This document shows, piece by piece, positions 4,059 to 39,524 of a stretch of DNA of 64,000 bases. The translations under genes were made by a program, and so were the position numbers. Numbering within the stretch: position 1 is the first letter of the stretch; every line of letters begins with the position of its first letter. A model generated the notes under the pieces. That model was not told the DNA's origin and ran no database searches. It saw only the letters and a list, made by a program, of their open reading frames with translations. Source of the stretch: an uncultured Bacteroidales bacterium (GTDB lineage: Bacteria; Bacteroidota; Bacteroidia; Bacteroidales; UBA932); assembly GCA_949294195.1 (NCBI GenBank), contig CASFGK010000016.1:1-64000 (forward strand), in the 5' to 3' direction.

Positions 4059-5618
4059 TTATTGAACCTCGTCCGGCCAAGGACAAGGGAGACCTGTCGC
4101 CTTGAATGACGGTCTCTGTGCACCGGCCTTGCGGAGATATTTCCCGAGTTTTGCGGAAAGTTTCTTCACGATGTCAGGGTAATCCGAAGCGAGGTTGTGT
4201 TCCTCACCGATGTCCTCAGTGATATTATACAGTTCCTTTGCTCCTGTCTCATAGAAATATATGAGTTTCCAGCCACCGCTTCGCACTGTACAGGTAGAGC
4301 CGATTCCAGGCCCCGTCTCTCCCCAAAGGTTAGGGAAGTTCCAGAAAAGGTCGCGATGTTCCGAAGGATTGCCGGAACCGTCCAGAAGCGGAACAAAACT
4401 TCTTCCGTCTATGACCTGCGGTACGGAATATTTCCGGATACCGGCCATCTCCAATATACTTGGGTAAATATCCTCGGCCATGACAAAACCGTCATTCCGC
4501 GTGCCTCCTGCTGTCACACTAGGCCAGTACACCATCATCGGTTCCCGTATTCCGCCCTCGTATGCAGAGCCTTTCCCGCATTTCAGCGGATAATTCTGGG
4601 TATAAAGAGGAGTATCGCGCCAATGGGCTCCGGTTGCATAACCGCCGTTGTCACCCATAAAGATAATTATAGTGTTGTCAGCCTCGCCATTCTCTTCAAG
4701 CCAGTCCATGATATCTCCAAGGCTCTTGTCCATGCCCTCTATCAGAGCCGCATAGGCTGCTTCCTTGTCAGAAAGGCCTTTCTTCTTGTACTTGTCGAAG
4801 AATCTCACATCCTTGTCGATCGGAATATGCACGGCATAGTGGGACATATAAAGATAGAAAGGCTGGTTGTATGCCTTTGCCTTGTCCAGAGCGCCGATTG
4901 CCTCCTGAGTAAGCGCTTCTGTCAGAAAAGTCCCTGACTTCCAATACTTGCGCATACCCTTGACATGAAATGGAGATGTCGGATTGCCGTTGTCGTCATG
5001 ACCGTAGTTGAATTCACTCAGATATGTGGCGACTCCGCCTGAAGCGTGTCCTGTGATGTTGACCTCAAAGCCGAAATGGCATGGATTCTCGCCTGGAGTG
5101 TCCTTCGCTCCCCAATGTGCCTTCCCGCAGTGTATCGTGTGATATCCGCTGTCCTTGAGAAGCTGAACGAAAGAGGTACAGAGGTATGTGTTTTCCGTAC
5201 CGGGAACCTGAGATATGCCGTTGAAATTCCACTCGGGAAGTTCAAGCACGTCGCTCTTCATGTCGGTCTTCACATTTTTTTCAAGTGTCCAGTTGGTCAC
5301 ACGGTGGCGTGCCGCATTCGATCCTGTCATTATACTGCACCTGGTCGGGGAGCTTACGCTTGAAGCATATGCCTGGGTAAACATGACCCCCTGCCGGGCA
5401 AGACGTTCCATATTGGGAGTCTCGTACCTTTCATTGTAGAATGTCTTTTCTGTCCAGAACGGGACCGAGGTATCCTGCCAACCCATATCGTCTACAAGGA
5501 AGAAAATGATGTTGGGTCTGCCATCCCTTGCTTGTCCGGAATCCTGAGCCTGTGCGCATACCCCAGTTCCGGCAGCTACGGGAGCGAGGCTCAATGCTGC
5601 TATTAGTCTACTGTTCAT
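4059..5618 (-). CDS. Secreted sulfatase, serine-type (S1 family)
   Basis: This 519-residue protein has an N-terminal export signal (LIAALSLAPVAAGTGVCAQA) and the alkaline-phosphatase-like sulfatase fold. It shows NIIFFLVDDMGW for metal binding, the active-site signature S89-S-P-T-R-C-S-I-M-T-G, IIFMGDNGG and GKGSAYEGGIREP. The residue to be converted to formylglycine is Ser89, so maturation would need the radical SAM anSME system, which is not in this window. Its start overlaps the end of the fucosidase gene by 11 nt, a sign of translational coupling. It probably removes sulfate esters from the same fucose-containing glycan, for example mucin O-glycans or a fucan. The exact sulfate position cannot be read from sequence. 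Confidence 0.92.
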   Translation of the reverse strand: MNSRLIAALSLAPVAAGTGVCAQAQDSGQARDGRPNIIFFLVDDMGWQDTSVPFWTEKTFYNERYETPNMERLARQGVMFTQAYASSVSSPTRCSIMTGSNAARHRVTNWTLEKNVKTDMKSDVLELPEWNFNGISQVPGTENTYLCTSFVQLLKDSGYHTIHCGKAHWGAKDTPGENPCHFGFEVNITGHASGGVATYLSEFNYGHDDNGNPTSPFHVKGMRKYWKSGTFLTEALTQEAIGALDKAKAYNQPFYLYMSHYAVHIPIDKDVRFFDKYKKKGLSDKEAAYAALIEGMDKSLGDIMDWLEENGEADNTIIIFMGDNGGYATGAHWRDTPLYTQNYPLKCGKGSAYEGGIREPMMVYWPSVTAGGTRNDGFVMAEDIYPSILEMAGIRKYSVPQVIDGRSFVPLLDGSGNPSEHRDLFWNFPNLWGETGPGIGSTCTVRSGGWKLIYFYETGAKELYNITEDIGEEHNLASDYPDIVKKLSAKLGKYLRKAGAQRPSFKATGLPCPWPDEVQ

Positions 5619-7017
5619 CTGATGACTTATTTATATAATAAACACTGAAATCACCAATCTGAGGAATATCCCTGCTATCATCGACGACAAGTCTGAATGA
5701 AGATGCCTCCACCGGAGTGTCGAAATATGCTATTCTCTTGTGTCCCACGGAAGTACCGGAGCAAACCGTCTGCCACTTGCCTCCGACTCTGGCCTCCACG
5801 CGATATGACCTTACCCTCTCCCCTTTTGAAATATCTTCGCTGATAATGCAGCAGTCGGCTTTCTTAACGGCAGGAAGTTTCAAAGTCAGTCTTTCAGTCT
5901 CTCCGGAAGTCTCCCCCAAAGGAGAACCGAACCTTCTAGATATCTCGGCACCCCATTCTTCCAGCCGCTTCACGTCCCCTTCCGGTATGAGACCGTCCGG
6001 ATCCGGGGTCAGACCGACTATCAGGGTAGCATTCCGTCCGACTGACTTCTCATACATGTCCATAAGTGTCTCAAGAGAATATACGGTATTTTCATCACCT
6101 GGTTCCCAGAACCATTCATGCCGTCCTGCAGCGCCCCGCAAAGGAGTGTCCGCCATTGCGGGCACCCAGTAGGCTCCGTCCGGATCGCCATGGGCAAGCA
6201 GGCCGTTATGTGCCGCCGCGGACTCATTATTTCGGTTGTGGCTGTACGGATACGGAAACGTCGACCAGCACGGATACCCTACAGTCCCGCTTTCCGAGCC
6301 GCCCCAGCGAAGGTCCGCACGATCCACATTGTGGTAGAAAAGGCAGTCAGGCTGATATCTGTTCACGATTGGCTCCACATCAGGACCCATGCCGCGCGGA
6401 TCATCCGCACCTCCGTCAAACCAGATCATGAACAGGTCTCCGTATCGCGTACACAACTCAGTCACCATCTTCTCGCAGTATCTCCGGTACCACTCCTGAC
6501 GGTTTCTTGCGAACTCACCGTCCCCTTCCGCCTTGAAATTGTGGATACCGAGCAGGGAGTTCCAGCGTATCCCGACATATATGCCTGGCTGGATTCCGTA
6601 CTTCCTGCATGAATTCACGAAATCTCGGACAATGTCCCCTTTGCCGTCCCTCCACTTGACAGCTTTAAGGCAATACGGATTCACATCGCTCTGCCACAGA
6701 CCGAATCCCGTCTCATGTGTTGCCGTCAGAATGGCGAACTTCGCACCGGCAGCCTTTGCCGCACGGATCCATTGGTCGGTATCGAGTTTCTCGGGATTGA
6801 AAATATTATAGTCCTCTACAGGATTAATCCTGTTGTTTCCCTGTCCGTATTTCTGCCCGTCAAACACGTGCAGGTCATAATGGAATACCACACCCATTTC
6901 CGCATCATGCCACTTCAGCTGCCGCTGGGCCGGAACAGGGATTCCGGTCTCTCTGGAAAACAACATGGGAACAGCCAGAAAGGCTGCACAAATCATACAT
7001 AAAATCTTTTTCATCAC
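5608..7017 (-). CDS. Alpha-L-fucosidase, GH29
   Basis: The 469-residue secreted enzyme has a signal peptide (ILCMICAAFLAVPMLFS), then a GH29 barrel. Motifs include MGVVFHYDLHVFDG, AKFAILTATHETGFGLW and MIWFDGGADDP, where Asp201 is the expected nucleophile. After about residue 365 a beta-rich segment resembling an F5/8C or CBM32-like domain follows (SYRVEARVGGKWQTV, FRLVVDDSRD). It releases terminal L-fucose from glycans with retention of configuration. It lies between susD and the sulfatase on the same strand. Its own TATCTTTG box 45 nt upstream may allow expression apart from susCD. Linkage preference is not readable. Confidence 0.93.
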   Translation of the reverse strand: MMKKILCMICAAFLAVPMLFSRETGIPVPAQRQLKWHDAEMGVVFHYDLHVFDGQKYGQGNNRINPVEDYNIFNPEKLDTDQWIRAAKAAGAKFAILTATHETGFGLWQSDVNPYCLKAVKWRDGKGDIVRDFVNSCRKYGIQPGIYVGIRWNSLLGIHNFKAEGDGEFARNRQEWYRRYCEKMVTELCTRYGDLFMIWFDGGADDPRGMGPDVEPIVNRYQPDCLFYHNVDRADLRWGGSESGTVGYPCWSTFPYPYSHNRNNESAAAHNGLLAHGDPDGAYWVPAMADTPLRGAAGRHEWFWEPGDENTVYSLETLMDMYEKSVGRNATLIVGLTPDPDGLIPEGDVKRLEEWGAEISRRFGSPLGETSGETERLTLKLPAVKKADCCIISEDISKGERVRSYRVEARVGGKWQTVCSGTSVGHKRIAYFDTPVEASSFRLVVDDSRDIPQIGDFSVYYINKSSDEQ

Positions 7018-7131: not shown

Positions 7132-9120
7132 TCAGTTGCTTGTCAAAGAATACTCTCCGGCTGTTACAGGCCAGTCAGGATTCTGATAAACGACTGTCGT
7201 GCTTATATCTCCTTCTGTCGTACAGGCAAGGCGGAACACATCGTATGACAGAGGAGAAAGGTAGTTTGCAGGATCAAATGTATATCCGTTGGCTGCAAGA
7301 TCGATATTCCAGGCAAGTTTCCAATGGTCTCCGTCAGACTCCGGAGAAACTCCTGCAACGGAAGCACCGGAGCCATGGGTTCCGTCACCGTAAATCTGAT
7401 CATACAGCGATGCGTAGTGTCCCCAATAATTGAAACCATAGAAAAATGTGTTCTTCATCATGTCAAGAGAACGCCAGCGGTAAAGATCGTCCATACGGAG
7501 ACCGTCTGTAGCATAAAGTTCGCACCTGCGCTCGCGTCTGATGTTATAGAGCACTACATCCACCAATGACGAACCGCTGTATTTTGCCAGATCTTCTTCC
7601 CTTGACAGGTCAGTGGCCGCATTTGTAGCATCTATATCGTCACTTACACCGGCTCTGCGACGGAGAGTTTTCCAGTAATTGGCACCGTCAGAGCTTAGAC
7701 TTCCATCGATCTCGTAGTCAGCTTCCACATAGTTGATATAAGCCTCGGCCACTCTGAAAAGAGGAAGCTGCGTGCTGCCGGGAGAGTTGTAGTCTATGGC
7801 ATCGTCCCTGACAAATCCGAGACGAGGGGCATAGCCGGTAGAAGTACCGTTGACACTTCCGCTCGTTCCAACCCAAGGCATGTAGAAAGAAACACCGTTG
7901 TAGACATAGTCCCCTTCCTTGGCTATGGAACCGGATATTCTCTCATCTCGGTCAGCCAAAGCTTCCGCTATGGTAACGTCGCCCTGATAGCCTGAATTAT
8001 CTGCATAAATAGGCAGTCCGTTCTTCATGAGGAATGTGTTGACAAGTGATCTGGTATAGCCGGTATTGCCACCGCCTACGCCTCCGAATCCTGCCGGATA
8101 CCTGTCAATATTGGAATTGGTAATTCCGTGTGTCGCACCGATGATAGGATTCATGTATTTGGCGTCTTCGCTGAACATACGGGCAAGCAGGACGTCGCTC
8201 ATTGCGTCCAAAGAGCCTATGTTGGTCTGGTTGTATAGGTCGAAATACTTGTCATTCTCATCAAGAGGCCTGAATGATATGACTTCCTGTGCCGATTTAA
8301 TAGCTTCGTCAAGGAAGAAGTTCACTTCCGCTGCATTGTCATAAACGAAGTCAGAATTGTAGTCCATTGCAGCCCCCGGCCACCCTGAATTCCTGTCAGG
8401 CACACGTGCTGTTCCTGCATGGTATTTTTCGAAAGTTCCCTCAAACAGTGCAACACGCGATTTGAAAAGCTGTGCAACCTGCCTGTTCACCCTTCTGTTT
8501 GCCGTAGGCTCGCTGCCCTTGTTCTGAAGGCGTTCAATAGCTTTGTCCAAATCTTCAAGGATAAAGCGTGCCACAACATTCCTCGGCTGACGTTTGTTGG
8601 CCTCCGTACGTGCCGCATAGTCAAGCTCGTCCAGCACTTCTGTGACAATAGGCATATCCCCGTATGTGGTCAGGAACGAATAGTAGACATAAGCCCTGAA
8701 GAAATACATCTCGCCTATGTAGTGCCGGTTAACCGCATTATCCGCAAGGGTCCCGTTCTTGAGATTCTCCTCAGTGCGCTGGAGAAACATGTTGATAGTA
8801 CGGATAGTGCCGAAAGAACCGTAGCTCCCGCTTGAAGGGACCTGGATTCTTCTCATGAGGAAATTGTCGATCTGGCTTCTTCCCACCATGTTGTCGGTTC
8901 CCTGGTCAGCAGTGAAACGTCCCAGTGTACCGTTGGTCCCGGCATGTGTCGGGAACAGTGTATGCATATTGTTGCAATATGCTTCCAGATGCGTAGACTC
9001 TGTAAAGAATGTCTCCGGAGATACATTGGACAAAGGCTCCTTCTCCAGAAAATCAGAGCAGGAAGCAAGCGTAAGCACTCCGACAGACAGAAGCAGTATT
9101 TTGTTTATAATCTGTTTCAT
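7132..9120 (-). CDS. SusD/RagB-like outer-membrane glycan-binding lipoprotein
   Basis: This 662-residue protein begins with a lipoprotein signal (ILLLSVGVLTLASCSDFLEK, Cys21) and has the SusD family start FLEKEPLSNVSPETFFTES. The tetratricopeptide-rich helical body shows IGEMYFFRAYVYYSFLTTYGDMP and RRRAGVSDDIDATN. The C-terminal region has YNIRRERRCELYATDGLRMDDLYRWRS, common in the family. It acts as the lid over the SusC transporter at the cell surface and captures oligosaccharides. It begins 13 nt after susC ends and is clearly cotranscribed. The length is somewhat above the usual 500-600 residues, so a large member of the family. Confidence 0.95.
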   Translation of the reverse strand: MKQIINKILLLSVGVLTLASCSDFLEKEPLSNVSPETFFTESTHLEAYCNNMHTLFPTHAGTNGTLGRFTADQGTDNMVGRSQIDNFLMRRIQVPSSGSYGSFGTIRTINMFLQRTEENLKNGTLADNAVNRHYIGEMYFFRAYVYYSFLTTYGDMPIVTEVLDELDYAARTEANKRQPRNVVARFILEDLDKAIERLQNKGSEPTANRRVNRQVAQLFKSRVALFEGTFEKYHAGTARVPDRNSGWPGAAMDYNSDFVYDNAAEVNFFLDEAIKSAQEVISFRPLDENDKYFDLYNQTNIGSLDAMSDVLLARMFSEDAKYMNPIIGATHGITNSNIDRYPAGFGGVGGGNTGYTRSLVNTFLMKNGLPIYADNSGYQGDVTIAEALADRDERISGSIAKEGDYVYNGVSFYMPWVGTSGSVNGTSTGYAPRLGFVRDDAIDYNSPGSTQLPLFRVAEAYINYVEADYEIDGSLSSDGANYWKTLRRRAGVSDDIDATNAATDLSREEDLAKYSGSSLVDVVLYNIRRERRCELYATDGLRMDDLYRWRSLDMMKNTFFYGFNYWGHYASLYDQIYGDGTHGSGASVAGVSPESDGDHWKLAWNIDLAANGYTFDPANYLSPLSYDVFRLACTTEGDISTTVVYQNPDWPVTAGEYSLTSN

Positions 9121-9133
9121 CGTATGTTATCAA

Positions 9134-12100
9134 TTAAAATGTAAGGTTGATACCGCATGACAGCGTAAAGCTGAGAGGATAGATCAAGTTGTTGGACAAA
9201 GCTTCCGGATCATAGTTTTCAATGAGTTTTGTACCTGTCCAGATGTTGTCGGCAGAGAAGAAGACGCGCAGTCTCTCGATAGCGGCTTTGCGGGTTATAT
9301 GCTGAGGAAGAGTGTATCCTATCTGGACGTTCTTGAGTCTGATGTAAGAAGCATCCTGAAGATACCCTGACTGACGCTGGCGGTTCTGTCCGTTTTCAAA
9401 ACGCGGCCTAGGATAGTATGCGTCAAGGTTAGCTCCGAGAGGGTCTCCTTCCGGACGGAAGTAGTCGAAGTGAGTCTCATAAGCAGTAGAGCTCCACAGA
9501 CCTCCTGCCTGCCCCCAGAATCCCATGCCTTCCAGCCAGTAGTCGCGCTTCCCGACACCCTGGAAGAAAATGCTGAAATCAAGACCTTTGTATTCACCGC
9601 CGATGTTGAGGCCAAAGCGGTATCTAGGAGTATTGTTTCCTATTTTCACCCAGTCTCCGGAGTCATCTACGGTACTCTCTCCGGTGGTTATCTCTCCGTC
9701 CCCGTCAACATCCTTGTACATGATATCTCCGGCTCCCCAGCCGCCGACACCCTGCAGTCTGCTCTGATCCACATATGCCAGATGCTCATCCATCTCCTCC
9801 TGTGTCTTTGCAATACCTTCAGTGACATATCCCCAGATTTCGCCTATTTCCTGTCCGACATAATAGGTATTGAGGCTGTTGCTTGCATTAGGATATTCCG
9901 TCACGAATGAACGGGAGTCCGAAAGATTGAATGCTACATTGTAGTTGAAGTCCCCTATATGGTCTCTCCACTCCAGCTGGAGTTCCCAACCACGGGTACG
10001 GAGAGAAGTATTGTTCATTGACGGAGCTGATGTTCCCACGATTGGGGATATCTCCTCCGCAGGTCCGACCATATCTTCAGTATCACGGATGAACCAGTTG
10101 AAATAACCTGTAAACCTGTTGTCAAACGCACCCCAGTCAAGACCGACATTGTAGCTGTAGATTTTCTCCCATGTCAGGCCGAGCGCCACCATACCAGGAG
10201 CTCCGGCAGAATTGGACTTGGAGTCAGGAGACAGCAGCCAGGCGCTTCCTGTATCAGGACTGCCTACTGTAAATCCCTGAGTAGCATACGTAGGATACCA
10301 GTTATTTGTATTCTGGTTTCCGAGCGATCCCCATGAACCTCTGATTTTCAAAAGATTGACCCAATCCTTAGCATTACCCCAGAACGGTTCGTTGGCTATA
10401 TTCCATGCAAGAGAAACCGATGGGCTGTTCACCCATCTGCTTCCTTTACGGAAACGGGATGAGCCGTCTCTCCTGAAAGATACCTGCAGGAGATACCTTT
10501 CCGCAAAATTATAGTTGATACGTGCGAAATAGCCGAGAGTGGACCAGTCGCTCATCGTATTGGTACCGGAAGTCTCTCCTGTTGCAGTATTGATTGTAGG
10601 AAGAGAGTCGGATATCACATCATTGCGCTGCATGTTCATGCTGTTGATGAAATAGCTCTCGCTGTTGTAACCGGCCATTGCCTTGAAGTTGTGCCGGCCC
10701 CAGACGGCAGCATATTCGGCATATGCGGATGATGTGAGCAACTGATTCTGCCACACTTCGCTGTACACCATAGTCTGTCCGGCTGCCTCTGTCACGCTTC
10801 CGCCCTGCCACTGTTCCTGCACAGGCTGGTCGTTCTTGTCGTAGAGAAAGACTTTGGCCTTGTTGTATTTGTTCTGATAACTTCCTCCACGGAATGCCAG
10901 ATCCCCCACTATGGTAAGTCCTTTTACAGGAGTGATGATAAGGCTTCCCTGAGTGAAATACGTATCCTGGACCGTATCCGAGCGTCCTCCTTGCTGCAAC
11001 TGAGGAATCTTAGGGTTCCTGGTATAGTGACCGTTCGGGTCAGTAAGCGGCATGTTGGGATGCAGTTTGGTTATCTCCTGGAAGAAAGTGTCTCCGTTCA
11101 GCTTTATATATGAAGGCATGCTGATTTCTTCTCTTGTGAAGCGTGAGTTGAACTCTATCCTGAGCCACTTGGTAATGTCGGCACTGACACGGCCGGATAC
11201 ATTATAACGGGTCTTTGACTCATCGGAAAAATTCAACTGCCCGTCCTGGGTCATGAAAGCGCCTGACACGTAGTACTGCACCCGATCCGTTCCTCCTGAC
11301 ACGCTCAGGTTGTGCTCGTGCCCGAACGATGTCTTGTCCAGAAAAAGCCTAGGCCAGTTTACATTAGCCCAAGTGGTAGTATTGAAAGGATACAGGTTTC
11401 CTGCCTGTGAACCGTTGAGGTCACAGGTCGTGTCTATTTCACCTGCCATATACTTCTGGATATTCTCTACAGTCTGTTGGTTGATGACACTGTAGTTGTC
11501 ATATCCGTTGTTCATCTGACCGGCGTTCATATAAAGAGCCCAACGGTAGGAATCCATCATATCCGGAATACGGGTAGGACGTGACCAGCGGAAATTGTTT
11601 GAATAGGTGATGCTGGCCCTGCCTTTCTCTCCTTTCTTTGTAGTCACAAGTACCACTCCGAACGGAGCTCTGGATCCGTAAATGGCGGAAGAAGCCGCAT
11701 CCATAAGCACCGATATGCTTGCGATATCCTGAGGATTGAGAGTATTGATATCTCCTTCAACCCCGTCTATCAGAATAAGCGGCGAAGCACTTGAACCTGT
11801 CCCAAGGTTACCCGTACCGCGAATATTGAAAGAAGGCGTGGCATCAAGACGTCCTCCCTGGGAAGGCATGCTGATGTTTAGGCCAGGAACAACGCCTTGA
11901 AGGGCCTGGCCGACAGAAGTCACAGGGCGCGAATCAAGGGCTTTTGTGTCGACAGATGCGACAGCCCCGGTCAAGTCGATTTTCTTCTGGGTACCGAATC
12001 CGACCACGACCACTTCATCAAGAAGCTCGGTATCGTCTTCCATAATGACATTCAACGGGTTGCCGTTCCATGTCAGTTCCACGGTCTTATAGCCGATTGA

Positions 12101-12374
12101 CTGGAACAGAAGAATGTCCCCTTCCTTTACGTTGTCAAGAATGAACTTTCCATCAAGATCAGTAGATGCACCGATGGTCGTGCCTTTCACAGAGACAGCA
12201 ACTCCTATAAGAGCCTCTCCTTTGCTGTCAGTAACTAATCCAGAGCAATGCTCTGTCTGCTCAGATGCCTGTACGGCCGGGAGTGTCCCCCCCAGTTGAT
12301 GCGAAAGCTGTGCCGGCGGACAATAGCGCAAGCATGAGCACAAGCTCCCGTGCTTTAAAACTTTTAAAGAGCAT
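9134..12374 (-). CDS. SusC-like TonB-dependent transporter, frame interrupted in the signal-peptide region
   Basis: The body is a complete SusC protein. A carboxypeptidase-regulatory-like domain (GLVTDSKGEALIGVAVSVKG) comes first, then a plug with DEVVVVGFGTQKK, VPGLNISMPSQGG, ILIDGVEGDINTLNP and SAIYGSRAPFGVVLVTTKKG. A 22-strand barrel follows, ending GINLTF. It imports oligosaccharides with the SusD partner. The natural ATG at 12374 opens a perfect signal peptide (LVLMLALLSAGTAFA, then STGG) but in another frame, which stops at 12261. The frames meet at a seven-G run at 12287-12293; six G would join them. As read, only a frame starting at a TTG (12343) without a signal peptide is open. This is either a phase-variable OFF state or a one-base sequence error. 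Confidence 0.85.
12287..12293 (-). repeat. Seven-base homopolymer (G7 on the coding strand) at the susC frameshift
   Basis: The plus strand has CCCCCCC here. Upstream of it the signal peptide is in one frame, downstream the mature SusC is in another. Deleting one base restores a single frame reading AFASTGGTLPAVQASEQ. The tract sits just after the probable signal-peptidase site, a position where slippage would switch surface display on and off. Confidence 0.8.
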
Positions 12375-12433
12375 AAAGGTTATTAATTTAGTTAGTAAAA
12401 TGTAGACCGGCTTCACACTCAGCCGGAATTTTG

Positions 12434-12441
12434 CAAAGTTA
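12434..12441 (-). promoter_or_regulatory. Promoter -7 box of the susCD operon
   Basis: CAAAGTTA on the plus strand reads TAACTTTG toward susC, matching TAnnTTTG. The transcript would start near 12428, about 55 nt before the ATG at 12374. No clean TTTG lies 19-21 nt further upstream, as is common for activator-dependent PUL promoters. Confidence 0.5.
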
Positions 12442-12538: not shown

Positions 12539-13711
12539 TCATTTGAAAAGTCTCCCGGCAAAGTCAGCAAGGTAGATCCTCCAGTTGCGCCAGATATGGC
12601 CCCCGTCAGTCTCTATATATACATACGGATAGCCATGCCCGTCCAGATAGGAGCGGAGCTTTGTATTCTCATCATACAGAAAATCTGTATTCCCGATGGC
12701 TATATAATAGAGTTCCAATCCGTTGGAGAACTGTTTCGCTATCTTGGAATCAAAATCGTCATATACGCCCCCGACACCGTTTTCAGGATTCCTGACCGCA
12801 GCGGAGAACAGGCCTACATAGTCGAACATATTCTCGTACTGCTTGGAGATGTGGAACGAATGGAAGCCGCCCATAGACAATCCCGCAATCGCGCGTCCGG
12901 ATTTCTTCCTGATTGTACGGTAATGGGAATCAACGTAATTCACAATATCCATAAATGCAGACTCATAGGACCCTTCCATCGTTTTCATCGGCCTTGTCAT
13001 CGGCTGGTAGAGACCTTCCGGTCCCTCTCCGGGAGCCGAAGGGAGTCCTGCATTCCCGTTAGGCATCACGACTATCATCGGCTCCGCCTTCCCTTGGGCG
13101 ATAAGGTTGTCAAATACCTGAGCCGCACGTCCGAGAGTCACCCATGCGTCTTCATCTCCGCCCATTCCGTGCAGAAGATACAGTACCGGATACCTTCTGT
13201 TACCGGAATCCTCATAGCCTGCCGGAGTATATACAGTCATACGCCGATGCATGCCGAGTCCCGGAGAATCGTACCACACCTTGGATACGGTGCCGTGCCC
13301 ATCCTTGCAGGCATTGTACAAGTCTCCCTTACCACCAGGTATAATGAAGATATTCATCATGGAACGAACGTCTCTCATCAGGAAAACATTGGAGGGATCC
13401 AGCATCTGAAGCCCGTCCACAATGAATGCGTAGCTGTAAAGCTCTGAGTCAAGCGGACCTGTAGTCAGACTCCATACTCCTCCTTCTCCCTCAACAAGCC
13501 CGGCTTTTCCCCAGCCTCCGTTTTCATTTTCAAAGCAGTCTCCTGTAACCTCGACCTTCACTGCCTTGGGGGCATAGAGACGGAAAGTCACGGAATTGTC
13601 TCCGTTGATCTGAGGGGACATGACGCCTTCCTTTGTAAAAATGGCCTGCTGTGCAGATACGGCAGCAGGAAGCAGTATCGCTGCAACAAGAATAAAGAAA
13701 ATCTTTTTCAT
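12539..13711 (-). CDS. Secreted esterase with N-terminal E-set domain (CE1/esterase D-like)
   Basis: The 390-residue protein has a signal peptide (IFFILVAAILLPAAVSAQ) and a beta-sandwich E-set/CBM48-like domain (about 20-120, NSVTFRLYAPKAVKVEVTGD). An alpha/beta-hydrolase of the esterase D (putative esterase) family completes it. Visible motifs are YPVLYLLHGMGGDEDAW, the nucleophile elbow AGLSMGGFHSF and a late catalytic His in ETDGGHIWRNW. Relatives with this layout deacylate plant or mucin glycans (feruloyl or acetyl esterases of CE1). The gene has its own promoter box and terminator, so it is a separate unit beside the PUL, though it may serve the same glycan. The acyl group removed cannot be read. 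Confidence 0.85.
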   Translation of the reverse strand: MKKIFFILVAAILLPAAVSAQQAIFTKEGVMSPQINGDNSVTFRLYAPKAVKVEVTGDCFENENGGWGKAGLVEGEGGVWSLTTGPLDSELYSYAFIVDGLQMLDPSNVFLMRDVRSMMNIFIIPGGKGDLYNACKDGHGTVSKVWYDSPGLGMHRRMTVYTPAGYEDSGNRRYPVLYLLHGMGGDEDAWVTLGRAAQVFDNLIAQGKAEPMIVVMPNGNAGLPSAPGEGPEGLYQPMTRPMKTMEGSYESAFMDIVNYVDSHYRTIRKKSGRAIAGLSMGGFHSFHISKQYENMFDYVGLFSAAVRNPENGVGGVYDDFDSKIAKQFSNGLELYYIAIGNTDFLYDENTKLRSYLDGHGYPYVYIETDGGHIWRNWRIYLADFAGRLFK

Positions 13712-28680: not shown

Positions 28681-29760
28681 CTACCTGCCCGATGTCCCGT
28701 AATATCCGGCATACCACTCGGCAAAGGCTCTCAGGCCTTCACGCAACGGAGTGGACGGCTTGAATCCGAAATCCTCTTCCAAAGGTGTCGTATCCGCGTA
28801 TGTAACAGGCACATCGCCAGGCTGCATAGGGACCAGCTCCTTATGGGCCTCGAAGTCATAGTCGGCCGGAAGGACTTTTGCCGCCACCAGCTCTTCCTGA
28901 AGTATGGTCACGAAATCAAGCAGGTTTTCCGGGCTGTTGTTCCCGATATTGTAGACCTTGTACGGCGGCAGAGGCAGGCCGTCCTCACCGGTCCTGCGCT
29001 CCGGTGCGTGCTGCATCACTCTGACGACTCCCTCTACTATATCGTCGATGTATGTGAAGTCTCGCCTGCAGTTTCCGTAGTTGAATATCTGTATCTTCTT
29101 CCCTGCCCTGAGCTTGTCCGTAAAGCCGAAATATGCCATGTCCGGCCGTCCGGCAGGGCCGTAGACAGTAAAGAAACGAAGTCCTGTGCTCGGAATGTCG
29201 TACAGCTTGGCATAGGCATGGGCCATCAGCTCGTTGCTTTTCTTGGTGGCGGCGTACAGGCTGACCGGATTGTCCACCTTGTCATCAGTACTGTAAGGGA
29301 CCTTCTTGTTGCTCCCGTATACGCTTGACGAACTGGCATATACCAGATGTAGGACCCCCTGCCTTCCGTCATCATAGGAATGCCGGCATGCTTCCAGGAT
29401 GTTGTAGAATCCTATCAGGTTGCTTTCGATGTAGGCGTCAGGGTTGGTGATGCTGTACCTCACACCGGCCTGGGCGGCAAGATTCACCACCACATCCGGC
29501 ACGTATTCCGCGAAGACCCGGTCTACAAGCTGCCTGTCGGCAATGCTTCCCCTAATGAAACTGAACCGGTGGCAGGAAATAAGCTCCCGGAGCCTCTCTT
29601 CCTTGATTCCGACATCATAGTAGTCGTTCATGTTGTCGATTCCCACTACCTTGACATCGCAGTCCGCCAGCAGCCTCCGGCAAAGGCCGCTGCCTATGAA
29701 TCCCGCAGCTCCAGTAACCAGTACCGTCCTGCCGCTCAAATCAATATTTTTCCGTAACAT
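28681..29760 (-). CDS. NAD-dependent epimerase, probable UDP-glucuronate 4-epimerase
   Basis: This 359-residue extended short-chain dehydrogenase has the NAD-binding GAAGFIGSGLCRRLL, the catalytic YASSSSVYGSNKKVPY and the YAATKKSNE (Tyr-x3-Lys) motif. The sequence with RFFTVYGPAGRPDMAYF and DDKVDNPVSLYAATKKSNELMAH is typical of UDP-glucuronate epimerases (CapI-like), supplying UDP-galacturonate for a polysaccharide. It is the last gene of the minus-strand capsule locus, 87 nt after rhaM. A related 4-epimerase such as UDP-glucose epimerase is possible. Confidence 0.85.
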   Translation of the reverse strand: MLRKNIDLSGRTVLVTGAAGFIGSGLCRRLLADCDVKVVGIDNMNDYYDVGIKEERLRELISCHRFSFIRGSIADRQLVDRVFAEYVPDVVVNLAAQAGVRYSITNPDAYIESNLIGFYNILEACRHSYDDGRQGVLHLVYASSSSVYGSNKKVPYSTDDKVDNPVSLYAATKKSNELMAHAYAKLYDIPSTGLRFFTVYGPAGRPDMAYFGFTDKLRAGKKIQIFNYGNCRRDFTYIDDIVEGVVRVMQHAPERRTGEDGLPLPPYKVYNIGNNSPENLLDFVTILQEELVAAKVLPADYDFEAHKELVPMQPGDVPVTYADTTPLEEDFGFKPSTPLREGLRAFAEWYAGYYGTSGR

Positions 29761-29847
29761 GACTATATGGAATTTCCAAACTTAAAACATGGCAAGATCT
29801 CCAGCCTTTACCGTGCGGTAAAGTTAATACTTGTCAGGATATCTCCA

Positions 29848-30177
29848 CTACATTTTGAATATCCTCTCCATCAGGCGCCATTTCTCGCTCGGGGATGCAT
29901 GAGGGTCAGCGACCTGGTACTTCGACATGTACTCCTCCCACTCCATCTGCCTCGGCTGTTCCCCGAGCCTGCCGTAGTCCCGCTCCCAGTCGAAGTCATC
30001 CTCCGTCTCGACTATCATGAACAAAAGGTTGTCCTTCAGATAGATCTCCATATCAAGTATCCCGACCGCCCGGAACCCTTCCCGGATTTCCGGCCACACA
30101 TGGTTATGCTCCTCTGCATACGCCCTGATCAACTCCGGATCATTCTTCAATGTAAGAGTCTGGCAATATCTTTTCAT
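29848..30177 (-). CDS. L-rhamnose mutarotase-like protein (DUF718)
   Basis: The 109-residue alpha-beta dimeric barrel protein interconverts sugar anomers. Typical parts are MKRYCQTLTLKNDPELIRAYAEEHNHVWPEI with the active-site His-Trp-Pro region, LKDNLLFMIVETEDDFDWERD, and the final region with WRLMERIFKM. In Bacteroidales these proteins can act on L-rhamnose or L-fucose. Position at the tail of a capsule locus is unusual, because mutarotases usually serve catabolism. It might also serve the fucosidase PUL. I cannot decide the substrate. Confidence 0.8.
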   Translation of the reverse strand: MKRYCQTLTLKNDPELIRAYAEEHNHVWPEIREGFRAVGILDMEIYLKDNLLFMIVETEDDFDWERDYGRLGEQPRQMEWEEYMSKYQVADPHASPSEKWRLMERIFKM

Positions 30178-30287
30178 GACATTTTTTCAACTTTCTAATA
30201 TTTGCCCCACCGATATCCTGTTGTATCCTCTCTGTCCCACATCAGTCCGTGCATCCTGGCATGTTACTTCCGTGATCAGTACAGGGT

Positions 30288-31094
30288 TCATGATTTTGGA
30301 ATAAAATAATTCCCCATTACGATGGTTGAAATTTTAAAACGCACAATTTCAAATATCTTTTCCATATACCTCAGACCCTCAAAAAGGACATTGGAATATA
30401 TTCCATTTTTCTTATACGCTTTCATATGGTCTGCCAAAATTTGTCTGTGACTGTCCAGTCCCTGTGTGGATACTCCTCCAATACGCATAGTAACACAGTC
30501 CAATGGAATATATTTTATATTGATCCTGCCTATAAAAACAAGCCTGAGAAGGTTTTCAAAATCAGCCCCTATTTTAAATGAAGTATCAAAAGTTCCGTAT
30601 TTTTCATATACTGACCTCCTACAGTAAAATGAAGGATGAGCAGGCATCCACCCCAATCTCATTTTCCATCTTTTAAAACTTTTAGAAGAATAATAACGCA
30701 CGACTTTTGTCAGATCTTCACTATCTACAAAATGCACATCTCCATATACTGCATCTGAACCAGTCTCCTCAAAAGCCGCAACCAGCTTTTCCAAGACGCC
30801 ATCAGAAGTGTAGAAGTCGTCACTGTTCAATATTCCGACGATATCCCCGGTCGCCATTGCTATACCCTTATTCATGGCGTCATATATACCATGATCCGGC
30901 TCGCTTATCCACCGCAACTTTCCGTTGTATCTTGGTTCATACTCCTTTATAACCTCCAATGTATTATCCTTGGAGCCTCCGTCAATTATGAGATGCTCAT
31001 AGTCGCCATATGTTTGCCGGAGTACACTTTCAATAGTGTCTCCCAATGTTTTGCCGCTATTGTAGGCAGCTGTAATAATGGATATTTTAAGCAT
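30288..31094 (-). CDS. Glycosyltransferase family 2
   Basis: The 268-residue GT-A enzyme begins KISIITAAYNSGKTLGDTIES and shows HLIIDGGSKDNT. The metal-binding acidic motif is in GILNSDDFYTSDG, and a PAHPSFYCRRSVYEKYG acceptor region follows. It adds one sugar to the lipid-linked repeat unit at the inner face of the membrane. It is the most downstream glycosyltransferase of the locus and already part of the AT-rich segment. Donor and acceptor are unknown. Confidence 0.88.
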   Translation of the reverse strand: MLKISIITAAYNSGKTLGDTIESVLRQTYGDYEHLIIDGGSKDNTLEVIKEYEPRYNGKLRWISEPDHGIYDAMNKGIAMATGDIVGILNSDDFYTSDGVLEKLVAAFEETGSDAVYGDVHFVDSEDLTKVVRYYSSKSFKRWKMRLGWMPAHPSFYCRRSVYEKYGTFDTSFKIGADFENLLRLVFIGRINIKYIPLDCVTMRIGGVSTQGLDSHRQILADHMKAYKKNGIYSNVLFEGLRYMEKIFEIVRFKISTIVMGNYFIPKS

Positions 31095-31103
31095 AGCAAA
31101 AAA

Positions 31104-32189
31104 TTACAATAAAGACCTGTATACCTCTATTGTCTTTGAATATGTATTATCCCAAGAAAATAATTTGGAATTGGCCAAGCCCTTTTCTATTTCTTTTTCC
31201 CTGAGGGACACATTATTCATTAAATTTCTCACCGCATCTGCAACTGGATTTACTCCTATTCCCCTCAGTAACAGATCTGATTCCCCCATAACTTCAGGTA
31301 TAGAAGAAACGGCAAAGGCAATTACAGGGCAACAAGCTCTCTGTGCCTCAAGGACAGGAATACCAAACCCCTCATATAACGTTGGATATAATAAAGCCAG
31401 AGCTCTGTTATATAGCTCATTCAATCTTTCTGTAGATAAATTATATAAATGGATAAAATTCGATTTTCCCAAATTTTCATCAAGTTTTGACAATTCTTTC
31501 CCATTTAATTGTTCTCCCCCCGCTATTATCAAAGGTAATTTGGTACTCCGACAAACTTCAATTGCCAAATCAAGATTTTTATATTTAGCATAATGTCCTC
31601 CCACATACAATATAAACCCGCCATCATCAAATGGCAAGGACATCCCATATTCATTTTTTTCAATCCTTCGGAAAACCGGGTTTACCCCATTATGTATTAC
31701 ATGTATTTTATTCCTATCAATTTTCGGATAAAACTTCATCAGATCATTCCGTGTACTCTCAGATATGCAAATGACAGCATCAGATTTGTTAATTGCCTTT
31801 CCTTTCTGATACGAATGGACTTTCTGCTTAATCCCTTTGACAAAATACTCATAGTTAAAATCATGTACAGTTGTCACATTTTTTGCATTGTGATTATTGT
31901 CTATTCGGTAATATGAAGAATGAAAAATATATGGACTATCAAATTGTTTTCCCCTCACATTTAAATATCTTTTATACTTAAGGTTCGTCGCAGCCATTTC
32001 GGAAACAAGCTCTCGTGGAATATTTATCTCCTTTCTGAATATATTGTTTCTTGCACCTTCATATTCTATAAAACGACAGTTAAACTCATGGCTTTTCAAC
32101 AACCTGGAAATATGCTCTTGCCAGACAACTGAAATTCCCCCGCTCCGTTGCAATGAGAAGATTATATTATCTAATAATAAATTATGCAT
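31104..32189 (-). CDS. Glycosyltransferase family 4 (GT-B)
   Basis: The 361-residue protein has GGISVVWQEHISRLL for the N-terminal fold, VTTVHDFNYEYF, INKSDAVICISESTRNDL and HVIHNGVNPVF. The C-terminal donor site shows GFILYVGGHYAKYKNLDLAI and LLYPTLYEGFGIPVLEAQ with the E-x7-E motif. It is a retaining enzyme of the GT4 type with mannosyl- or similar transferase relatives. Spacing to the next gene is 12 nt. The specific donor is not predictable. Confidence 0.88.
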   Translation of the reverse strand: MHNLLLDNIIFSLQRSGGISVVWQEHISRLLKSHEFNCRFIEYEGARNNIFRKEINIPRELVSEMAATNLKYKRYLNVRGKQFDSPYIFHSSYYRIDNNHNAKNVTTVHDFNYEYFVKGIKQKVHSYQKGKAINKSDAVICISESTRNDLMKFYPKIDRNKIHVIHNGVNPVFRRIEKNEYGMSLPFDDGGFILYVGGHYAKYKNLDLAIEVCRSTKLPLIIAGGEQLNGKELSKLDENLGKSNFIHLYNLSTERLNELYNRALALLYPTLYEGFGIPVLEAQRACCPVIAFAVSSIPEVMGESDLLLRGIGVNPVADAVRNLMNNVSLREKEIEKGLANSKLFSWDNTYSKTIEVYRSLL

Positions 32190-32201
32190 GTTATAATAAT
32201 G

Positions 32202-33263
32202 TTATTCAATAAAGAGTCTATCCCATGATTTTTTTATATTACACGCGGAATATTCTTTGGCTTTATTATATGCTCTTTCTCCAAATAATTTCAGGAGCTG
32301 ATGATCTTCAATTAATAATTCTAACTTATTATAAAACTCATTCGAGTCATCGACTAAGAATCCATCACTTCCGTTTATTATCAATTCATTTGTCCCTTCA
32401 CATCTATAAGCGACTGTAGGCACTCCACATGCTTTTGCTTCTAATATGGCCATCGGCAGCGCCTCTGTATATGATGTCATAAGTAAAATAGAAGATTTAT
32501 TGAGCTTACCTTGAATATCTTTAGTTGAACCTTTAAAATGGACATTATCTAAAAGATTTTCCCGATAAAAAATATTATATAATTCATCTTTTAACGGTCC
32601 GTCTCCATATATCTCAATATTCCATAATGGGTGTCTCTCCCTTAACTTATGTGCGATTGGAACAAGTCTTTCATATCCTTTTTCTTTACTTAGCCTGCCA
32701 ATCATTATTATTCTTTTACAATCTAACAATGCTGGTTTTAATTGAAAGAATGATAATGCATTAGGGATAATGCATATTTTTTTATTCAACCTAGCATATT
32801 TTTGTTTCGCAGTTTTAGACAACACAATAATACCATCTAAAAACGGGTAAATACACTTCATTATGATTTTACTACTATATGGAATAGTATCATAATTTAT
32901 ATGTTCACACCCATATAATTTAATTTTTTTTATTCTTATAAATGGTAATAAAACATTTATATTATGTCCATAACCAAGAATAATATCCGGGGATATCATT
33001 TTAATTATGGGAATCAAATTCTTTAGCGCAATAATATACCAGACAATTTTATTTAAAAAATTCTGCTGTAAATCATGCAATCCTAAATGATAAATTATAA
33101 CATTTCCAAAATCAAATGCAGGTTTCTCATCCGGATTACTGCTTAAACTTATAATATTAATTTTATATCTTTCATCTGATGACAAGATATGTATCAAATT
33201 GCTAATTGCTCGTTCTGTTCCCCCGTTAGGAATTATACTATTACACAAGACTGTTATTTTCAT
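32202..33263 (-). CDS. Glycosyltransferase family 4 (GT-B)
   Basis: The 353-residue enzyme starts KITVLCNSIIPNGGTERAISNLI. It has IIMIGRLSKEKGYERLVPIAH and ILLMTSYTEALPMAILEAKACGVPTVAYRCEG, typical of GT4 donor-binding sites. It overlaps the 3' end of the Wzy gene by 23 nt in another frame, indicating translational coupling. The DNA is much richer in A and T than the flanking core genome. Confidence 0.88.
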   Translation of the reverse strand: MKITVLCNSIIPNGGTERAISNLIHILSSDERYKINIISLSSNPDEKPAFDFGNVIIYHLGLHDLQQNFLNKIVWYIIALKNLIPIIKMISPDIILGYGHNINVLLPFIRIKKIKLYGCEHINYDTIPYSSKIIMKCIYPFLDGIIVLSKTAKQKYARLNKKICIIPNALSFFQLKPALLDCKRIIMIGRLSKEKGYERLVPIAHKLRERHPLWNIEIYGDGPLKDELYNIFYRENLLDNVHFKGSTKDIQGKLNKSSILLMTSYTEALPMAILEAKACGVPTVAYRCEGTNELIINGSDGFLVDDSNEFYNKLELLIEDHQLLKLFGERAYNKAKEYSACNIKKSWDRLFIE

Positions 33264-34590
33264 GTTGCTTTACATTGAATGTTAATTTAGATATTAACCA
33301 AAATAAAAACACACACAACACAATTTCATTTACAGAGAAAAAATATTCTGATCGCACAATATAAACAGCTTGAGACATAAAAACTGCATAAACTATAATA
33401 AAGTAAATATTATTGTTCTGGACTTTCTTCTCCAGATATTTTATAACAACACCCAATATATACATAAAGCAGATAACACCCGCAACCCCAAAACCCAAAT
33501 ATAAATCAGCAATAATACTGGTTCCTAAACCAAGAGAAGAATCATCCCCTAATGTCTCTTTTGTCAAAAGAAGAGAAGAACTTGTTTCTGAAACATCTAA
33601 TTTAAATAAATTATGCATTAATGATGACAGAAACGGAATAACTCTAAAAACACAAGCCAACATACTTTTACCAAATGTTATTCCTTCTCTGTCCACATAA
33701 TCTACAGCAACAAATGTATTTCTATTATTGATAATCAAATCCATAAACATATCAATAAAGGCAAAAGCTTCAATATTCCCTCCGACTCGAAATATGCCAA
33801 TTACTGATAATGAAATAGCACCACCTAAAACAAGTAAAATAAATTTTATTTTACCTATAGGGTTAAAATAATAAGAATATAACCATATAACTACCAGAAA
33901 GATAGATAATACCCCGCTTCTGCTTCCTGTAGATAAAATCAATAGGCTTTGTAATAATATAAATACAATAAAAGGCTTATTAAATTGTTTAACACTTAAT
34001 AAATTGTTCTGATTTAGCTTATAAAATTGAGTTACTATTGTTAAAATCAATAACGGGGAATAGACCACTCCAATATATCTAACCACAGAAGAAACTTGAT
34101 TTCGTCCTTCTCCATCATACAATCCCCTGAGAGAAGATAAGGATCCTGAACATAAAAGGATGCCAAATACGACTACTGACAAATAAAAAAAAGAATGGAA
34201 TTTAATTTTCCTATAAGGGCTTTCTTTATACGGTATTCTATCAAATTTCTTTAACCTTCCCATAATATAAGAAGAAAAGCCAAGCACCGATAATGCAGTA
34301 GATCTAGTTATAACGTTTTCATTAAATCCAAATGAAAACATAGTAAAATATTGTGGATTGATAGGGTATAAAAATATCGGATAAATAAAAAAAGTAATAA
34401 AAAAAGAAAAAGTAAAAATAGTGTCAAAATCAAAATAATTGCTTTTTTTACTATACTTATAGTAAAGAATGACCATAAATATAAATAAAAGACAGCATAG
34501 AAAATTATACCCCCACACATATGTATGAGGAGCGCATATAAATAATATTACAGATAATAGAAAAGCCAACCTCATTAAAGAACGTAACAT
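33241..34590 (-). CDS. wzy: Wzy-like polysaccharide polymerase (O-antigen ligase/polymerase type)
   Basis: The 449-residue protein is almost entirely hydrophobic with about 11-13 predicted membrane helices. Examples are LAFLLSVILFICAPHTYVWG, FIIVYAVFMSQAVYIV and LCVFLFWLISKLTFNV. A longer hydrophilic loop lies around residues 320-370 (KLDVSETSSSLLLTKETLG), as in Wzy, which joins lipid-linked repeat units at the periplasmic face. No sequence motif is diagnostic, so the call rests on topology and on the locus having a flippase and glycosyltransferases but no other polymerase candidate. Confidence 0.75.
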   Translation of the reverse strand: MLRSLMRLAFLLSVILFICAPHTYVWGYNFLCCLLFIFMVILYYKYSKKSNYFDFDTIFTFSFFITFFIYPIFLYPINPQYFTMFSFGFNENVITRSTALSVLGFSSYIMGRLKKFDRIPYKESPYRKIKFHSFFYLSVVVFGILLCSGSLSSLRGLYDGEGRNQVSSVVRYIGVVYSPLLILTIVTQFYKLNQNNLLSVKQFNKPFIVFILLQSLLILSTGSRSGVLSIFLVVIWLYSYYFNPIGKIKFILLVLGGAISLSVIGIFRVGGNIEAFAFIDMFMDLIINNRNTFVAVDYVDREGITFGKSMLACVFRVIPFLSSLMHNLFKLDVSETSSSLLLTKETLGDDSSLGLGTSIIADLYLGFGVAGVICFMYILGVVIKYLEKKVQNNNIYFIIVYAVFMSQAVYIVRSEYFFSVNEIVLCVFLFWLISKLTFNVKQHENNSLV

Positions 34591-34604
34591 AAGTATCGAC
34601 TGAT

Positions 34605-35594
34605 TTATTTTCTTTCTATCTGAAACTTATGGGTATAAAATAAAATCTTTCTACATACTCTATATAAAAAATATCTTATACTAGCCGGAAAAACAATAAG
34701 GTCTAATATAATATATTCCATTACACCCAAATGCATCCCTTTTACACTTTGTCTAATAGCAACATAATCTGAATGATTCCTATTCAAAGATTTATCTTGA
34801 TACGCATTTCCCAAAGATCGAATTACGCATCGCATTATATCTGGTTTTAGCATATTGAATACCTGTTCGTTCTGTATTGTAGATAACAGTATTTTCAAAA
34901 AGGTTTTTTCATATTCCCATGTCGTATGAAAGATATGAATTGCACTTTGAGCATGTTGCCTATAATAGTATACATAATTGTTTATATAACATACGCGACA
35001 AGCATACATTGCATAACGAAAATTCATAATAAAATCTTCGCCACGTACAATACTTTTTGGAATTGACAAAATGTCTTTATTAAATAAACAATGTTTATAA
35101 AGTTTCGCGCATGGAGATGAAAAAAGCAATCCAGTACTATTCAATAGTTGCTTAATAAAACAAATATTATCAAATACTGTAATTAAGTTTTCATCCCTAA
35201 TATCTTTCTCAATAGAATTTTCGTCTGAAAAATTTTTTATATTACCTATTATAATATCATAATCATATTCTGAATTCATCATTAATAATTCTAAAGAATT
35301 ATTCGGCAATAAATCATCAGAGTCGCAAAACATAACCCAAACTCCAGACGCAACAGACAATCCTTTTGCTCTTGCAGCAGTTACCCCAGAATTCGACTGA
35401 TAAATGTATTTTATTCTATCATCTTGTTTTTTCCATTTTTTACAAATCCGCTCTGACTCATCTGTACTTCCATCATTTACGAGAATTAATTCAAAAGATG
35501 TAAATGTCTGGTTAAGTACACTTTCTATTGTATGGTCCAAATATTGTTGCGCATTATATATTGGAATTATAATACTGATCTTAATCAAATCCAT
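34605..35594 (-). CDS. Glycosyltransferase family 2
   Basis: The product begins MDLIKISIIIPIYNAQQYLDH and has LILVNDGSTDESERICKKW, NSGVTAARAKGLSVASG and the acidic FCDSDDLLP metal site. IVRGEDFIMNFRYAMYA, further along, also fits the family. The C-terminus ends in a hydrophobic-basic stretch that may touch the membrane. Two adjacent ATG codons (35600 and 35594) are possible starts; I chose the second as closer to the conserved strand. It lies between Wzy and the pyruvyl transferase. The donor sugar is unknown. Confidence 0.87.
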   Translation of the reverse strand: MDLIKISIIIPIYNAQQYLDHTIESVLNQTFTSFELILVNDGSTDESERICKKWKKQDDRIKYIYQSNSGVTAARAKGLSVASGVWVMFCDSDDLLPNNSLELLMMNSEYDYDIIIGNIKNFSDENSIEKDIRDENLITVFDNICFIKQLLNSTGLLFSSPCAKLYKHCLFNKDILSIPKSIVRGEDFIMNFRYAMYACRVCYINNYVYYYRQHAQSAIHIFHTTWEYEKTFLKILLSTIQNEQVFNMLKPDIMRCVIRSLGNAYQDKSLNRNHSDYVAIRQSVKGMHLGVMEYIILDLIVFPASIRYFLYRVCRKILFYTHKFQIERK

Positions 35595-35628
35595 ACACAT
35601 TATCTGTAATTATAGGTAAATATAAACT

Positions 35629-36699
35629 TTAATCTTTTTTAAGTCCTTCTTCTAAAAATTTTTTAGAATAGTTTACAAATTCTGTCTTTTTATTATTAAC
35701 GCTTTGCCAATCTACATTACAATTCAAATTATCAATAGACTTTACCGCCCGCGAAGATAAACCAAATTGAGTAAGCAATGATGACAATCTTTCATTCCCT
35801 CTTATTTCATTTGATATCGTATAAAAGGGTTTATTGAAAATTATTGAAAACACCGTTCCATGAAATGAATTTGTAACAACAAAATCTGCATCTCTGAATA
35901 ATGCCAACCATTCTTCTATGGAAAACTTTAGTCCTTTATCTGCTGTAGCACTGATAATTTCCATATTATTTTGCATTGCAAGTCTGTATATACAATTCTC
36001 GATTCCGGATGTAGAATCAAGAATGTATGCAAATATGAATTTTCTGCGACATGTAGGTATAGTTGAACATAAATTCATATAGTCCTCCTTATTTAATAAT
36101 AATGTAGGATCACATACACATGTAGCTGAAACATCAAAATATTTTTTACATAATGCAACGCCAGAATCCTCTCTTACGGTAACCAAATCAAATTTTTTTA
36201 TTAAAAAAGAACATTTCCTAATTTGCCTTTTGCTGTAATTTTCCAAATTATTCAAACCAAAAGATGCTGCATATGCTATCCGTTTAATAGTAAGATCCTC
36301 AATAAATTTTAAAAACATATTCTCTAAAACACCCTGGTTATATATTGCTCGCCACACCTGATCACTACCTACTATTATCGCGTCCGCTTTCTCCCTTTCA
36401 ATTATTTCTTTTGTGTACTTATTAACCGGATCCGTTACTGAAATATAATCATTAATAAATTTTTGCACTTCGGGCTTTCTTCTATAAGCATATTTTATAA
36501 ATGCACGTTTTTTCCCTAAACATCGCAATAAAATTGTTTTACATATAGATAAAACATATCTTAAAACAGTCGGCTTATATATATAATCTATTGTTACCGG
36601 ACTATGTCCCATCCTTTTTAATACTGTTTGCAATGCATAATTCTGAAGTAAACCGCCATAATTAGCAGTTAAAGGCTGAGTAATAATACAAATCCGCAT
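35629..36699 (-). CDS. Polysaccharide pyruvyl transferase family protein
   Basis: The 356-residue protein belongs to the WcaK/CsaB-type family (PS_pyruv_trans). Visible parts are TANYGGLLQNYALQTVLKRMG, IIVGSDQVWRA, VTVREDSGVALCKKYF and VTNSFHGTVFSIIFNKPFYTI with the conserved SFHG. Members transfer a pyruvate ketal to a sugar of a surface polymer. It starts 4 nt after the stop of the Fe-S gene, a pairing often seen in capsule loci. The bases are strongly AT-rich compared with the upstream neighbour. Confidence 0.88.
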   Translation of the reverse strand: MRICIITQPLTANYGGLLQNYALQTVLKRMGHSPVTIDYIYKPTVLRYVLSICKTILLRCLGKKRAFIKYAYRRKPEVQKFINDYISVTDPVNKYTKEIIEREKADAIIVGSDQVWRAIYNQGVLENMFLKFIEDLTIKRIAYAASFGLNNLENYSKRQIRKCSFLIKKFDLVTVREDSGVALCKKYFDVSATCVCDPTLLLNKEDYMNLCSTIPTCRRKFIFAYILDSTSGIENCIYRLAMQNNMEIISATADKGLKFSIEEWLALFRDADFVVTNSFHGTVFSIIFNKPFYTISNEIRGNERLSSLLTQFGLSSRAVKSIDNLNCNVDWQSVNNKKTEFVNYSKKFLEEGLKKD

Positions 36700-36703
36700 A
36701 TAG

Positions 36704-37924: not shown

Positions 37925-37954
37925 CTGTATTCTGTTCCTGAATATGAAACAAAC

Positions 37955-39484: not shown

Positions 39485-39524
39485 GATTTTCCGATGAAGC
39501 TGGTTATGCCCTGCCGAATCTTTC

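Follow-up and report, generated by a model that had tools for sequence, protein, structure and literature searches.

Length changes in poly-G tracts are known to switch outer-membrane receptors in a human pathogen: in Neisseria meningitidis, the haemoglobin receptors HmbR and HpuAB undergo poly-G phase variation, and the available portion of that report states ON tract lengths between 7 and 19, spaced by three (PMC3786947). Within the order Bacteroidales, the SusC/SusD proteins of Bacteroides fragilis show invertase-driven phase variation, according to the accessible text of a review (Nakayama-Imaohji 2009, via PMC11868660). In gut Bacteroidales, the best-known form of phase variation is DNA inversion; PhaseFinder-type pipelines, as presented in the accessible part of their source, look for inverted repeats (PMC10994844). 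Poly-G switches would escape inverted-repeat searches, and their OFF copies would be annotated as pseudogenes. Among the papers listed in a search of the open PMC literature, covering titles and the beginnings of abstracts, none deals with SusC switching by poly-G tracts or with phase variation in Cryptobacteroides. If the switch proposed below is real, the glycan-use loci of an uncultured animal-gut genus would be stochastically on or off.

We analyzed a window of 64,000 nt, the whole of one stretch of DNA from an uncultured Bacteroidales bacterium, in which a susC gene on the minus strand is divided between two reading frames. A signal peptide (MLFKSFKARELVLMLALLSAGTAFASTGGDTPGRTGI / MLFKSFKARELVLMLALLSAGTAFAS) starts from the ATG at 12374, in a frame that ends with a stop at 12263-12261, giving a short ORF of 37 aa (12261..12374) that joins the signal peptide to an out-of-frame tail. 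The mature frame (9134..12286) encodes a SusC/RagA-type TonB-dependent transporter that is otherwise intact, judging from its TIGR04056 match and its dN/dS. When opened from a TTG at 12343, the SusC ORF (9134-12343) is 1069 aa long; TIGR04056 matches it from residue 33 with 875 bits, covering profile positions 3-981 of 981, and its CarbopepD_reg_2 and Plug domains, its SusC/RagA profile and the susD gene downstream together identify the family. A one-base offset separates the two frames, which come together in a run of seven G's at 12287-12293, the only run of at least seven in the window with both strands counted, so that the gene contains a homopolymer at which a change in length shifts the frame. 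On the 5′ side of this tract, the SusC frame has no signal peptide and no ATG back to the preceding stop, and it consists of the signal-peptide DNA read in the wrong register. An earlier note on this DNA had described a clean signal peptide from 12374 in a frame ending at 12261, a mature SusC frame without a signal that opens only from a TTG, and a seven-G run where the two can be joined; our reading of the minus-strand frames bears out this description.

The gene belongs to a set on the minus strand. Downstream of susC lie its partner, an intact SusD-family lipoprotein (7132..9120; PF07980 and PF14322), an alpha-L-fucosidase family enzyme (5608..7017; PF01120) and, at the end of the set, a sulfatase (4059..5618; PF00884). 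The upstream neighbour is an esterase with a CBM48-like N-terminus (12539..13711; PF00756 and PF02922), and this synteny recurs in both orthologous loci described below. The element TAACTTTG at 12433..12440, also on the minus strand, is one that we take to be a possible Bacteroidales -7 promoter element. Between 9000 and 14000 there are four inverted pairs, all imperfect (14-24 nt, 75-94% complementary); one of the four, near the start, is 16 nt long and AT-rich with arms 19 nt apart. These pairs do not support an inversion switch at this locus, although one may still exist. Elsewhere in the window, and named by reading alone, the ORFs at 28681-40670 resemble a surface polysaccharide locus (an epimerase, several glycosyltransferases and a flippase-like protein), and a tyrosine-recombinase-like ORF is located near the window start (1442-2800).

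We propose that the run of G's following the signal peptide of SusC is very probably a simple-sequence contingency locus, and that the assembled copy is its OFF allele. Slipped-strand mispairing at replication would alter the number of G's, and at two of every three tract lengths the signal peptide would be out of frame with the mature transporter. In the OFF state represented by the assembly, ribosomes starting at 12374 would yield the 37-residue dead-end peptide, the outer-membrane transporter of the fucosidase/sulfatase glycan locus would not be made, and uptake would presumably be lost; cells with another tract length would make the transporter. We infer the rate and reversibility of slippage and the switching within a population, and the benefit may be bet-hedging against phages, immunity or a changing diet. 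The earlier note had suggested that slippage switches the surface display of the transporter. The on/off switch itself gains support from the conserved tract, the enrichment at SusC 5′ ends and the repeated breaks presented below, but the restriction to display does not hold, because with a 37-residue OFF product the switch would stop SusC synthesis and not display alone.

We counted G tracts in the window's own genome (G000), a draft of 2.16 Mb in 31 contigs that is 88.6% complete and in which the window is positions 1-64000 of contig C16. Exact runs of six, seven and eight number 92, 4 and 17, respectively, with one further run of nine; geometric decay would predict 0.17 runs of eight, compared to the 17 observed. 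Five of the 22 distinct tracts of at least seven G's are located at the 5′ ends of TonB-receptor (Plug-domain) genes, where 0.11 would be expected (Poisson P ~1e-7, based on the 26 Plug matches listed). Besides the window tract, the remaining four TonB-receptor tracts are all eight long and all in frame. Further tracts fall in genes for an ECF sigma factor, a Reg_prop/Y_Y_Y sensor, an acyltransferase and a hexapeptide transferase, and several have no long ORF across them.

The same counts were made across 61 genomes of the genus, comprising the own genome and a draw of others, where exact runs of six, seven and eight sum to 8727, 471 and 291 and runs of eight outnumber runs of seven in 15 genomes. 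For 24 genomes from the order's other families, the corresponding totals are 4142, 620 and 151, and runs of eight outnumber runs of seven in one genome; with 151 runs in these 24 genomes, G8 is thus present outside the family too. We then located 80 tracts relative to SusC genes: the window tract and 79 tracts of at least eight, taken from the own genome (18) and from genomes G032 (21/21), G077 (18/18), G018 (14/14) and G034 (8/10). These genomes were picked non-randomly, for their listed and mostly numerous G8 places, and some SusC-adjacent tracts had been noticed beforehand. Within this set, 23 of 80 tracts lie between -600 and +700 nt of the start of a SusC N-terminal domain and 20 of 80 between -150 and +250 nt, each count including one doubtful case (L129, a C8 placed by a partial SusC match) that enters no other count.

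A fairer sample is provided by 64 SusC 5′ regions, mostly from the genus, that were fetched by homology alone. A run of at least eight is present in 13 of the 64 (11 of 62 without two duplicates) and a run of seven in three, while 263 kb of DNA downstream of these 5′ regions, in the same loci, contains no run of at least eight; the difference between 5′ regions and downstream DNA is highly significant (Fisher P 1.9e-12, using the 11 tracts). In three genomes of other families, none of 55 G8 tracts lies within -150 to +250 of a CarbopepD_reg_2 domain among the domains listed; every listed domain on a tract-bearing contig entered the comparison, and the list covers all but a few of the 152 in total.

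We next compared the reading frames on both sides of such tracts. A G/C run of at least seven lies between -150 and +260 in 30 of 84 non-redundant SusC 5′ ends. According to the frame reading of the assemblies, 26 of these 30 genes are in frame and four are out of frame: the window gene (G7), L044 (G10), L173 (G9) and L058 (G7). In all four broken genes, the frame of the signal peptide or N-terminal domain extends up to the tract and SusC continues in another frame beyond it. The assignments of L058 as broken at its tract and of L145 as in frame were made by reading frames. Of the 54 genes without a run in the interval, 48 have their signal peptide in frame and six were flagged; five of the six continue without a frame break into an extended N-terminal part, and of these L101 has a G8 just outside the interval, while the sixth (L007) has a stop and no tract. 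In L007 (G000:C27, SusC 72168-75203), an in-frame stop separates the nearest ATG from the signal peptide, and there is no G/C run of at least six within 600 nt upstream of the plug motif. This gene may have a non-tract break or an unusual start, as both readings fit, so that 5′ breaks may also arise without tracts.

Three further breaks were found from the protein matches. Where a SusC match started only at query residue 93, inside the N-terminal domain, a break at the tract was expected, and all three such matches listed (in genomes G205, G127 and G182) are broken there. The genes at L178 (G10), L179 (G10) and L180 (G8) are each interrupted exactly at the tract; as they were picked for looking broken, they show where breaks fall and not how often. 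Together with the four above, seven SusC genes in seven genomes are out of frame at the tract. The three genes resemble a gene whose G9 copies in L157, L162 and L168 are in frame. Downstream of the tract, L178 (G10, out of frame) and L157 (G9, in frame) are 99.5% identical over 199 residues, and L179 (G10, out of frame) and L168 (G9, in frame) are 96% identical over 200 residues; in the stretch of flank compared, both pairs differ by one G and substitutions, with no other indel. L180 is more distant from its G9 homologs (69-72% by BLASTP). In-frame and out-of-frame copies that differ in tract length are therefore found, between species only, in two contrasts: the series of G9 in frame and G10 out of frame, which has equal flanks, and the window's G7 out of frame against G8 in frame at its orthologs L069 and L070, where flank lengths differ. 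Among the late-starting matches listed (query residues 101-185), L064, L068 and L182 were considered as further breaks and rejected, as their signal peptide lies directly before the plug region; L181 and L183, near contig ends, fall outside the frame reading.

These comparisons bear on a sequencing or assembly error, which would mean that the true tract has an in-frame length and that the gene is simply on. Homopolymers are a common site of such errors, and the base in question comes from a draft genome. However, four other SusC genes in the same assembly carry runs of eight without a frame break, and other assemblies have SusC out of frame exactly at such tracts. Moreover, the tract, its conservation and its enrichment would stand even if this base were wrong. 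We consider an error unlikely overall; the earlier note, which had called it an equally good explanation, gave it too much weight, although this single base could still be miscalled.

The orthologs of the window susC provide a further comparison. The nearest named relatives of its protein are from metagenome-assembled genomes of Candidatus Cryptobacteroides faecavium (L069, 87% identity) and Ca. C. excrementipullorum (L070, 88% identity), and both loci keep the gene order HtpG, esterase, SusC, SusD, fucosidase, sulfatase. When 400 genomes drawn from the genus were searched, only G344 (88%) and G102 (87%) were as close among the matches listed, and their lengths and tract positions identify them as the L069 and L070 loci again; this closeness also places the window in Cryptobacteroides. 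In both orthologs a G8 immediately follows the signal peptide and the reading frame continues across it unbroken, so that the in-frame signal peptide missing from the window SusC, where it is offset by one at the G7, is present in both. Synonymous sites are saturated between the window and the orthologs (dS 1.7 and 2.0), with a dN of 0.08 and dN/dS ratios of 0.05 and 0.04. The DNA aligns poorly just 3′ of the tract, the flanks also differ in length, and GGG accounts for 66 of the 403 glycine codons in eight window genes. By this comparison, the G tract is retained where neutral sequence has changed. The conservation in two orthologs at dS ~1.7-2.0 and the enrichment at SusC 5′ ends indicate that the tract is kept by selection and not by chance; similarly, the in-frame G8 of both close orthologs and the large G8 excess in the own genome argue that the window tract is more than a chance run.

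The same data weigh against a recent loss of function, in which susC would be a pseudogene with its first lesion in a mutable homopolymer and there would be no selected switch. Long G runs are mutable anyway, and the gene has a single lesion. Yet the tract is conserved at saturated synonymous distance, no second lesion was found in the 1041 codons compared with the orthologs, and the low dN/dS (0.04-0.05) indicates that, on these alignments, the window susC is under purifying selection. In addition, tracts concentrate at SusC 5′ ends, and breaks of this kind recur in other SusC genes. A decaying susC was therefore rejected on its dN/dS and its lack of any other lesion, and a pseudogene of recent origin appears improbable. 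Programmed slippage on the G tract, whether by RNA polymerase or by the ribosome, yielding some full-length SusC, is more improbable still: G7 can be slippery for polymerases, and SusC would then be made at a low, constant level, but no slippage is needed in the orthologs or in most SusC genes with a tract, which are in frame, so that a required frameshift is not conserved. Lastly, synthesis of SusC from a downstream start or from the TTG at 12343, from which the ORF is formally open, can be dismissed almost entirely, because the N-terminus that it would give (MCSCLRYCPPAQLSHQ...) is signal-peptide DNA in the wrong frame, with no signal peptide or ATG 5′ of the tract, and an outer-membrane protein without a signal peptide stays in the cytoplasm.

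Slippage switching of the window susC is thus supported by independent sequence comparisons, namely the conservation of the tract in orthologs, the enrichment at SusC 5′ ends and the repeated breaks, including the G9/G10 series. As counterpoints, the window tract has just seven G's, 26 of the 30 SusC genes with a tract read in frame, and G8 runs also occur in non-surface genes and in other families.

Tracts in other kinds of genes were characterized by a Pfam scan of 20 of the 31 ORFs from other genomes that cover a G8. The 11 left out are L096, a likely copy of L092, and L098, L103, L108, L118, L119, L124, L141, L144, L146 and L147, which are mostly antisense or short. Ten of the 20 scanned ORFs look like surface or glycan-use genes: Reg_prop-type sensors (L090, L125 and L126), ECF sigma factors (L092 and L104), proteins with BACON, DUF5689, DUF5017 or fimbrillin-like domains (L121, L127 and L148), a glycosyltransferase-like protein (L117) and a TonB receptor with its tract in mid-gene (L139). 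The other ten have no family, a weak family or are enzymes. Two housekeeping genes have an in-frame G8, a topoisomerase (L130, G018:C12) and an RNB-domain exonuclease (L134, G018:C23), which are odd sites for a mutable tract; consequently, a G8 alone is no proof of a switch.

ECF sigma factor genes with an internal G8 were observed at L077 (G000:C8:152000-157500), L092 and L104, and L096 prints like L092. As the own-genome tract at L077 is ~2 kb from a SusC gene, a regulator of glycan use may be switched too. Propeller-type sensors (Reg_prop/Y_Y_Y) have a G8 right behind the signal peptide in two species, at L082 (G000:C16:268500-273500) and L126 (G077:C65), with identical starts and tract places. 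At L084 (G000:C27:7500-15500), two similar short ORFs (MKKKQYYYPP... and MEKKQYCPP...) contain a C8 in frame in one and a C9 out of frame in the other, and each precedes a large lipoprotein-like ORF, making this a second possible ON/OFF pair within the genome. At L086 (G000:C27:30000-42500; tract 6646-6652), the frame of a PLP-enzyme-like gene breaks at a G7, and the 3′ part of this gene seems to have recombined with the end of an aminotransferase. The contig beginnings at L075 (G000:C7:1-4000) and L087 (G000:C28:1-4000) are nearly identical and carry a G8, perhaps as a repeat or an assembly duplicate; on C7, an ORF that reads as GroEL-like lies beside the G8.

Extending the proposal from the window susC to the genus, we consider it somewhat likely that Candidatus Cryptobacteroides uses poly-G contingency switches genus-wide on its glycan-use loci, and that these act on more than one layer, including the ECF sigma factor and the propeller-type sensor as well as the SusC transporter. 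In this genus-wide reading, the SusC tracts lie within the signal peptide, behind it or inside the N-terminal domain. If it is true, each population would be a mosaic of cells that differ in diet and surface receptors, as in Neisseria but for glycan foraging.

Several described systems resemble this locus in part. As far as the consulted parts of these sources describe them, the proposed adhesin switches in the same phylum also concern phase variation of surface genes, with transporters here in the place of adhesins, and the homopolymeric contingency genes of Campylobacter and Helicobacter, from another phylum, likewise comprise many short tracts per genome. The B. fragilis system, in the review's accessible text, shares the order and the phase variation of SusC-family proteins, but it operates by site-specific inversion, whereas the inverted pairs between 9000 and 14000 of the window are only short and imperfect. 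The closest likeness is to Neisseria hmbR and hpuA where, in the available portion of the report, a receptor is set ON or OFF by the length of a poly-G tract within its reading frame. Neisseria, a pathogen of another phylum, takes up haemoglobin iron by these receptors, and the gene here is a SusC glycan transporter of a gut Bacteroidales bacterium. Unlike in Neisseria, the tracts examined here are often in or right behind the signal peptide, are mostly eight long in the set examined, and also occur in sigma factor and sensor genes.
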